Shown piece by piece: positions 2,921 to 5,554 of a DNA stretch of 6,607 nucleotides. The number at the start of each line of letters is the position of its first letter. Position 1 is the stretch's first letter. The position numbers and the translations under genes were made by a program. Source of the stretch: Nitrospinota bacterium. Lineage in GTDB: Bacteria; Tectomicrobia; Entotheonellia; J063. The notes below the pieces were generated by a model, which saw only the letters and a program-made list of their open reading frames with translations, ran no database searches and had not been told where the DNA came from. The stretch covers positions 1 through 6,607 of the forward strand of contig RFHZ01000172.1 of NCBI GenBank assembly GCA_003696125.1, in the 5' to 3' direction.

Positions 2921-5554
2921 AGTGTTGATGGCGAAGAACATGTCATTGTCCGTGACCAGACAGGGGTCCGCATGACGACTATCGGATCGTTTATCGATGC
3001 GGCTTTGGCTTCTGGGGAGAATCACGGTTTTTATGACAAACTCATCAGTGATCGGCTCGGTGAGGTACTCTGTTTTGGGATGAACGACCACCAGGTACGC
3101 TTTCGACCTATCCGGGCCGTGATCCGGCACAAGATAACAGAGCCCCTCTTGCAGATTCGCACCGCCTATGGCCGCTCGGTAAAGGTGACGGCAAGCCATA
3201 GTCTCTTTGTCTATCACCGGGGGAAGCTTGAACTCAGACGGGGAGATGAGCTGAAGGTGGGAGACTACATAGTCGCCCCCCGACATCTTCACCTGCCAGA
3301 CACGGGGATGCGTCGCCTTGATCTCTTTCGCACCCTCCATGCCATCCCTGAAGCCGCCAACCAGATCTGGGTCCGTGGCCCGGCAGTAGAGGAGTGGTAC
3401 AAGACTCGTATCCTGGCCGGGTATGCCGATAGGCCTGAGCTAACAGCTCCCCGTGTGGAAATCCCGGCAGATGTCCGTAAGGAGATGAAGACCCTCCGGA
3501 AGGCCTGTGGAATCAGCCAGCGAGACCTCTGCACCCGGGTGGGAGTCCGCCAGCCTGTGACATTCTACGCATGGGAAAAGCGACCCACCCTCCCTCGATG
3601 GCAGGCCTATTTACAGGCAATAGGTACCGATCCTCAGCAGATGATGAGTCGGGTAAACATCGCTTCCAGCACTCTTGAACGGATCTGGGCCGAGCAGTAT
3701 AGAGGTTCTCCTGCCAACCGGGTGCGATCCTATGTCCGACTCTCTGATCTGACTGACGAAGATGTGGAGTGGTTTGAGCAGCGAGAAGATATGGAACTCA
3801 GCCCTGAACATTACCAGAAGAAGGGGATTCCTCGCTTCCTGGAGATCACTCCAGCATTCATGACCCTCCTGGGATTCTATGTGGCCGAGGGGTCATGCTC
3901 GGATCGAGGGGGAATCCGGCTCTCCATGGGAAAATCTGATAGCAGGCTGGTCGCCGAGATGGCTGATGCCCTGGAGAGCGCATTTGGGATAGCACCCCAG
4001 CTTTACAGGTCCTCTGATCAGATAGAATTACGATTGGTGAACCGGGTTGCTGCCCTGGCATGGCAACACCTTTTGGGATTCCGGAAGGCCAGCGCGATAA
4101 CCAAACAGATTCCGGCCATCGTTTTTAACGTTGCCAAGGAACTCCGACTCGCTTTTCTCCGCGGTTATCTCCTCGGTGATGGCAGCGTTACCAGGGGAAA
4201 GATCTCCTTCTACACTTCCTCCCCCGATTTGGCCAGCGGTGTGGTCTATCTCCTCTCCTCCCTGGGTGTGGTCAGCTCTCTCTCCTTCCGTGATCCGAAC
4301 GGTACGGTCTCGGAGATTCGCGGCCAGCCATGCGAAACGAGACACCGCCACTGGATAATCAGCGTAACGGCGAGAGAGGACCTGGAGAAACTCACCCCAT
4401 TATGGAAAGATCATCCTGCGGCAGAAACGATCCGCAAGCGGCTCTCCAGCACGTCTCCCTCCCTAAATCGGCGTTTTGTGGAGGTTGATGGTGATCTTGT
4501 TGCTGTACCGATCACCGCCATCCAGCAGGTCGAGTCCTCAACAGGGTATGTCTACGATTTTTCGGTGGCAGGTGATGAGAACTTTATCGCCGGAATGGGA
4601 GGCCTGTGTTGTCACAATACCGACGCGGATGTGGATGGAGCGCACATCCGCACCCTGCTCCTCACCTTCTTCTACCGCCAGATGCCCCAGGTCATCGAGC
4701 GCGGCTACCTCTACATCGCCCAGCCTCCCCTCTACAAGCTAAAGCGGGGTAACCAGGAGTTCTACATCAAAGACGAGAGCACCTTTGATAACTACATCTT
4801 TGAGCTGGCCAGCCGGGAAGTCTCCCTCCTGCTCTCCACCCGGGATGGCCAGGAACAGATCACGGCGGAACGACTGGTGGCGCTTGTGAAGCAGATGATC
4901 GACTACGAGGCCCTGCTGCAGCGTTTTGAAAGGAAACGGTACGACAGCCGGCTGCTCCGCCTGATCACCCTGCAGGGCATCCTGGAGGAAGGGGTGATGA
5001 GCCAGGAAGAGGTCTTGCAGGCCCGGATCGCCGAGCTCAAGAGACTGTTCCAGCAGCTCTACCCGACCGAATCCCCCTTGGAAGCGACTCTCCACTGGGA
5101 AGAAGAGCAGGCCGGATACCGCATCGCCTTTGCCTACCTGCGGGATGGGGTACGGGTCAGCACCGAGATCACACCCGAATTTCTCCACTCCCCCGAATTC
5201 CGGGGACTGCGGGTGAAGGCGGAGAGCCTAAAACATATCGGCCTCCCCCCCTATACCCTGACCATCGATGGCACATCGTACCAGGTAGGCAGCTTCCAGG
5301 AGTTGATCGAGGAGATCAAACGGGTGGGGAAGAAGGGGTTGAGCATCCAGCGCTACAAGGGACTGGGGGAGATGAATCCTGACCAGCTCTGGGAGACGAC
5401 CATGGACCCGGAACGCCGGACCCTGCTCCGGGTCAGCATCGAGGATGCGGTGGAGGCGGACCAGATCTTCACCGTCCTGATGGGGGATCAGGTAGAACCC
5501 CGTCGCGAGTTTATCGAGACGCACGCGCTGGAGGTGCGGAATCTGGATATTTAA
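1424..5554 (+). CDS. gyrB: DNA gyrase subunit B precursor, interrupted by an intein
   Basis: GyrB is the ATPase subunit of gyrase (A2B2), which introduces negative supercoils. The precursor is 1376 residues; removing the 566-residue intein leaves about 810, close to E. coli GyrB. GHKL ATPase features are E46 (general base), N50, DDGRGIP at 77-83 and the [15 protein letters not shown] loop. QTKTKLG at 338-344 carries the ATP-contacting lysine K340. TOPRIM begins with VEGDSAGG (E427). TDADVDG follows the intein, at mature positions 500-506, with metal-binding D501, D503 and D505. The C-terminal RYKGLGEMN starts near mature residue 744. Between about 565 and 735 (mature) lies the Gram-negative-type insertion. 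I chose ATG 1424 because the protein then opens like other GyrB proteins, shortly before [19 protein letters not shown]; in-frame ATGs at 1349 and 1397 would add an unconserved extension. The start overlaps recF by 17 bases. Confidence 0.97.
2921..3284 (+). other. Intein N-terminal splicing domain (blocks A and B)
   Basis: This segment encodes the first half of the HINT fold. Ser1 would make the N-O acyl shift. The TxxH motif (T90, H93) in [13 protein letters not shown] is the block B motif that assists cleavage at the N-terminal junction. The stretch [14 protein letters not shown] after block B is a typical closing segment of this domain ("want the rule, get the G-D-x-h/V" pattern of HINT proteins). 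The exact downstream boundary is approximate. Confidence 0.85.
3479..3631 (+). other. Cro/XRE-like helix-turn-helix segment inside the intein
   Basis: Intein residues about 187-237 read as a Cro/C1-type DNA-binding domain: a leading helix ([11 protein letters not shown]), the turn-containing [13 protein letters not shown], a recognition-helix region ending in YAWEKRP, and a closing helix with [11 protein letters not shown]. This follows the familiar pattern LRxxxGlSQxxLaxxvGv...xxWExxxxxP. It lies between block B and the endonuclease, where inteins often carry DNA-recognition regions. It has no start codon or ribosome site of its own and is in frame with its surroundings, so it is a domain and not a gene. 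The likely role is extra contact with the homing site; autoregulation is a less likely alternative. This assignment is by pattern only. Confidence 0.65.
3827..4442 (+). other. LAGLIDADG (DOD) homing endonuclease domain of the intein
   Basis: This domain would cut intein-less gyrB alleles so that repair copies the intein in. The first LAGLIDADG helix is [11 protein letters not shown], with acid E323. Block D is near K395-Q-I-P398. The second helix is [11 protein letters not shown], with acid D420. One acid per motif is needed for metal-dependent cleavage, and both are present. The segment [15 protein letters not shown] just upstream resembles the lead-in common in archaeal inteins. The end, after the strand [15 protein letters not shown], is approximate. 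The intact acids and continuous frame suggest the endonuclease has not decayed, though activity cannot be judged from sequence alone. Confidence 0.87.
4460..4618 (+). other. Intein C-terminal splicing domain (blocks F and G)
   Basis: This short segment completes the HINT fold. Block F is [16 protein letters not shown], with D546; many inteins have His where this one has E553 (before NF). Block G is GLCCHN, with penultimate H565 assisting and N566 cyclising to release the intein. The next codon, ACC at 4619, is Thr+1 of the C-extein. Two adjacent cysteines (C563, C564) precede the His-Asn pair. Confidence 0.87.
4619..5551 (+). other. gyrB: GyrB C-extein (rest of TOPRIM, Gram-negative insert, tail)
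   Basis: This section begins at the Thr+1 of the splice junction and encodes mature residues 500-810. [20 protein letters not shown] supplies the metal-binding D501, D503 and D505 of TOPRIM. The following part, about mature 565-735, is the less conserved insertion known from E. coli-type GyrB. The conserved tail runs from [11 protein letters not shown] to [14 protein letters not shown], which contacts GyrA and DNA. The stop is TAA at 5552-5554. Confidence 0.93.

Follow-up and report, generated by a model that had tools for sequence, protein, structure and literature searches.

The window analysed here, a stretch of 6,607 nucleotides, spans the whole of contig C483, one of the 990 contigs of a MAG (94.8% complete, 8.0% contamination), and is known from this single MAG contig; the phylogeny of its GyrB fits the class of the MAG. 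It carries the 3' end of dnaN, recF, gyrB, and one further open reading frame. The gyrB reading frame runs from an ATG at position 1424, overlapping the end of recF, to a stop at 5554, and was divided into the following features. Downstream of gyrB, an open-ended reading frame of 345 aa (5573-6607) gave no match in searches of Pfam (E≤1) and NCBIfam (E≤0.1).

1424..2920, plus strand: GyrB N-extein, 499 aa, containing the TOPRIM motif EGDSAGG and ending in RYHRVILM (TIGR01059/PRK14939, tblastn, reading of the junction)
2921..4618, plus strand: predicted class 1 intein, 566 aa, from Ser1 to His565-Asn566 (profiles, PDB match, alignment, model, structural matches)
2921..3286, plus strand: N-terminal half of the HINT domain, residues 1-122, with block B TASH at 90-93 (TIGR01445, structural match to mini-inteins, alignment)
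3467..3646, plus strand: putative helix-turn-helix (HTH) accessory domain, residues 183-242, modelled as five helices (weak HTH profiles, weak match to 3f6w, model)
3833..4465, plus strand: predicted two-motif LAGLIDADG homing endonuclease, residues 305-515 (LAGLIDADG_3, 1.2e-17; structural matches to I-DmoI and WhiA)
4478..4618, plus strand: C-terminal half of the HINT domain, residues 520-566 (TIGR01443; the most conserved part of the alignment)
4619..5551, plus strand: GyrB C-extein, 311 aa, beginning with Thr and then DADVDG (profile match, empty-site relatives)

The original prediction, made from the letters alone, had placed a 566-residue in-frame insertion between RYHRVILM and TDADVDG, and its coordinates proved exact to the base: the insert comprises exactly 566 codons, from AGT (Ser1) at 2921 to AAT (Asn566) ending at 4618, and is followed by ACC (Thr+1, 4619-4621) and by GAC (4622-4624), the first Asp of DADVD. 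The further statement that the site lies one residue before the first TOPRIM aspartate applies to the first Asp of the catalytic DxDxD (4622-4636), but not to the Asp of EGDSAGG, which lies earlier; that motif (Glu codon 2702-2704, Asp codon 2708-2710) is uninterrupted in the N-extein, upstream of the insert. Removal of the insert leaves a GyrB of 810 aa, in agreement with the mature size of about 810 residues that had been anticipated.

The proposed profile search for a HINT domain was likewise borne out by both Pfam and NCBIfam. Intein_splicing (PF14890) matched the insert at 3.1e-18, above its cut-off, and TIGR01445 (intein_Nterm, 3.2e-8) and TIGR01443 (intein_Cterm, 9e-4) both exceeded their curated cut-offs. 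The insert has the residues of a class 1 intein, namely S1, TASH at 90-93, H565-N566, and T+1. These residues are nearly invariant among the aligned alleles, with S1, T90, H93, and H565 present in 21/21 and N566 in 20/21. Comparison with GyrB homologues confirmed the junctions: in four genomes of the same class, which make up the rest of the phylum in the genome set compared, the insert is absent and GyrB reads without interruption across the exact in-frame junction (IIIM/TDADVDGSHIRTLL, the slash marking the site).

LAGLIDADG_3 (PF14528) provided the endonuclease match to the insert, and both LAGLIDADG motifs end in an acidic residue (GFYVAEG with E323, codon 3887-3889; GYLLGDG with D420, codon 4178-4180). 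These two catalytic acids, K395, and the HTH region are all intact in the window intein. For the HTH region, the profile scores were under the curated cut-offs (HTH_31, 19.2 bits versus 27, 1.5e-3; HTH_3, 16.6 versus 23, 8e-3), and the XRE-family protein 3f6w matched weakly in a PDB sequence search (E 0.05). Within the whole-intein model, residues 183-242 form five consecutive helices (183-196, 200-207, 212-220, 224-234, and 238-242) with a pLDDT of about 80-90. HTH-like accessory domains have been described for the TliVMA intein and PI-TkoII (PMC8966425).

The AlphaFold model, built from the alignment of 21 alleles, had a mean pLDDT of 89.4 and a pTM of 0.84. The original prediction had likened the site to that of an archaeal Pol intein; the best PDB sequence match of the intein was PI-PkoII/PI-TkoII (2cw7, 2.8e-33), and structural comparison of the model with TliVMA (7qsu; Z 36.6, 346 residues) and with 2cw7 (Z 33.5, 413 residues) spanned residues 1 to 566 in both cases. 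Mini-inteins matched the splicing domain of the model with Z up to about 25, and I-DmoI and WhiA matched over the endonuclease (residues 306-515). Profiles, PDB sequence matches, and the AlphaFold model thus agree on a predicted HINT splicing fold enclosing a two-motif LAGLIDADG endonuclease. Neither this endonuclease, nor the putative HTH domain, nor the family of same-site alleles figured in the original prediction. PI-PkoII/PI-TkoII (2cw7) and TliVMA (7qss/7qsu) share with the window intein the combination of HINT and LAGLIDADG, and have an HTH-like accessory domain such as is predicted for it; however, they are archaeal, reside in other host proteins, and are only about 20-26% identical to it over the structurally aligned residues.

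A scan of genome contigs recovered 26 loci with a relative of the intein, and all 26 were located at the same GyrB junction. Their hosts include Pseudomonadota (Gamma- and Betaproteobacteria), Bdellovibrionota (a Bdellovibrio), Myxococcota, Bacillota, and Halobacteria. Inteins such as those of Thiorhodospira sibirica (L014), a member of the Steroidobacteraceae (L013), Halorubrum rubrum (L029), and Bacillota (L035 and L036) occupy the identical point M/TDADVDG with Ser1, terminal HN, and Thr+1. The full-length copies share the HINT-HTH-LAGLIDADG layout predicted for the window intein (42-57% identity). All of these inteins differ in host, and in some same-site copies the HTH or the endonuclease is gone. 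Occurrence is sporadic, with the intein in 1/47 genomes of the Thiorhodospira order and in 10/148 of one haloarchaeal family.

The same-site alleles form a series. Full-length copies keep both catalytic acids; L025 and L033 lack the HTH and have D420 replaced by K or G; and two Bacillota mini-inteins (L035:1566-2546, 327 aa; L036:3499-4491, 331 aa) have neither endonuclease nor HTH, a low-similarity linker with arginine-rich stretches standing in place of the endonuclease. This passage from full-length through decayed alleles to mini-inteins is the textbook homing life cycle. Another copy, L030, from a haloarchaeal MAG, lacks the HTH with both acids intact, and its C junction is broken: the reading frame is interrupted there (L030:6528-6590), and the terminal Asn and TDADVDG are unreadable. 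The break may be an assembly error; if real, no functional GyrB could arise from that copy.

In the same MAG, a second intein of 291 aa was found in UvrB (G000:C245:2691-3563; L002:1378-2250; L045), where it splits the Walker A motif (GVTGSGK/S...HN/TFTMANVI). It has a clear HTH (HTH_3, 3.9e-11) and no LAGLIDADG match. Matches to the UvrB extein abut at the intein junction in dozens of other genomes, and our literature search found no paper on a UvrB intein. A strict tie between HTH and endonuclease was also considered and is supported only in part: L025 and L033 have lost the HTH along with the catalytic Asp, and L035 and L036 along with the endonuclease, but L030 keeps its acids without an HTH and the UvrB intein has an HTH without LAGLIDADG.

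A second GyrB intein site lies beside the other catalytic motif. The Ssp GyrB intein of Synechocystis 6803 is taken here to interrupt EGDSAGG/S and to begin with Cys1, and its site would therefore differ from M/TDADVDG. Inteins of the Ssp GyrB type, found in cyanobacteria and others, resemble the window intein in lying in the TOPRIM region of GyrB; the insert in the window is not located after EGDSAGG but about 66 codons downstream. Synechocystis 6803 is listed under the 'gyrB' allele of Soucy 2014 (PMC4071816). In two of the loci, L022 and L024, one intein follows EGDSAGG (Cys1, Ser+1), in the N-extein before position 5001, and another lies at M/TDADVDG, and so both TOPRIM motifs can be intein-flanked in one protein. 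Searches of openly accessible literature found no paper on the M/TDADVDG site of GyrB, an absence that within this scope is no proof; the window intein represents a further case of established intein biology, at a site for which we found no matching paper.

When GyrB and intein trees were compared, the exteins of the window grouped with the four empty-site relatives (96/93) and the gammaproteobacterial exteins grouped together (93/95). Enforced monophyly of the gammaproteobacteria was rejected for the inteins (p-AU 0.0045), which indicates that inteins moved between hosts. The window intein itself fell loosely near that of Thiorhodospira (75/87), a placement from which no donor lineage is identifiable, and its presence could reflect either a gain here or a loss in the sister lineage. 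Its GC3 of 0.61, compared with 0.77 and 0.81 for the two exteins, is a mild compositional hint that it may be of foreign origin.

An alternative that we consider unlikely, while giving it some weight, is that the intein is old and vertically inherited here, with a dead endonuclease, and is kept only because splicing must work. Its identity to full-length bacterial relatives (53-57%) is little below that of the exteins (58-66%), a closeness by which recent transfer is not proven, and an intein tree joining the window with L012, as GyrB does, was not rejected (p-AU 0.256). Against it, neither the catalytic acids nor K395 nor the HTH show the decay that L025 and L033 exemplify, the intein is absent from all four of the same-class relatives, and its GC3 is unlike that of the exteins. 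A phage source is unsupported: the scan of viral contigs yielded no relative of the intein, and phage records gave a single weak match (26%, Staphylococcus phage).

The insert is almost certainly a standard, apparently intact class 1 endonuclease-bearing homing intein in gyrB. Judged from its residues and domains, the GyrB precursor would be translated whole, intein included, and would undergo self-splicing through Ser1, Thr+1, the Thr and His of block B, and the terminal His-Asn, which would ligate RYHRVILM to TDADVDG and release the 566-aa intein. In gyrB alleles that lack the intein, this highly conserved sequence would be cut by the LAGLIDADG domain, with the HTH domain probably aiding target recognition, and we propose that the cut would lead to the intein being copied in by repair.

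With 566 residues inserted one residue before the DxD aspartate, the precursor is very likely inactive before splicing, since the DxD metal ligands would be displaced by that length from the preceding strand. The original prediction went further, stating that an essential enzyme depends on the intein. This holds when read as dependence on splicing, but not as dependence on the intein, because the four same-class relatives do without any. Its argument that such a site is hard to lose is general published intein theory and no discovery here (PMC3359363, PMC7765530): native intein sites lie on average 8.3 Å from active-site residues, compared with 21.1 Å for other C/S/T sites (PMC3359363), and closeness to active sites selects for efficient splicing (PMC3359363, PMC7765530).

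It is improbable, in our estimation, that splicing is conditional, such that a signal (redox, metal, or temperature) gates gyrase post-translationally and the placement at the metal site together with the Cys-Cys of CCHN forms the switch. Other inteins, such as that of mycobacterial DnaB, are known to splice conditionally (PMC6195587, PMC7360933), and a terminal GLCCHN or GICCHN is common to most bacterial alleles; however, the ending is CAHN in haloarchaeal alleles and LTHN in L012, and the scattered presence and decay resemble selfish homing rather than retained regulation. More improbable still is that regulated splicing at the GyrB DxD, together with the intein in the UvrB Walker A motif, provides a pair of gates that act after translation, one on DNA topology and one on DNA repair. 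That the insert is a GyrB insertion domain retained in the protein and never removed is the least probable reading. It has an open reading frame and nothing more in its favor; against it stand the HINT fold, junctions and splicing residues of canonical type, and the empty sites in relatives, and such a domain would come between the catalytic DxD loop and the strand before it.

The homing intein of the window and its relatives document a GyrB site adjoining the catalytic DxD that bacteria and haloarchaea have in common, and between them they represent all stages of the homing cycle. This natural allele series is useful for studying the loss of endonuclease and accessory domains, and as a source of splicing domains.
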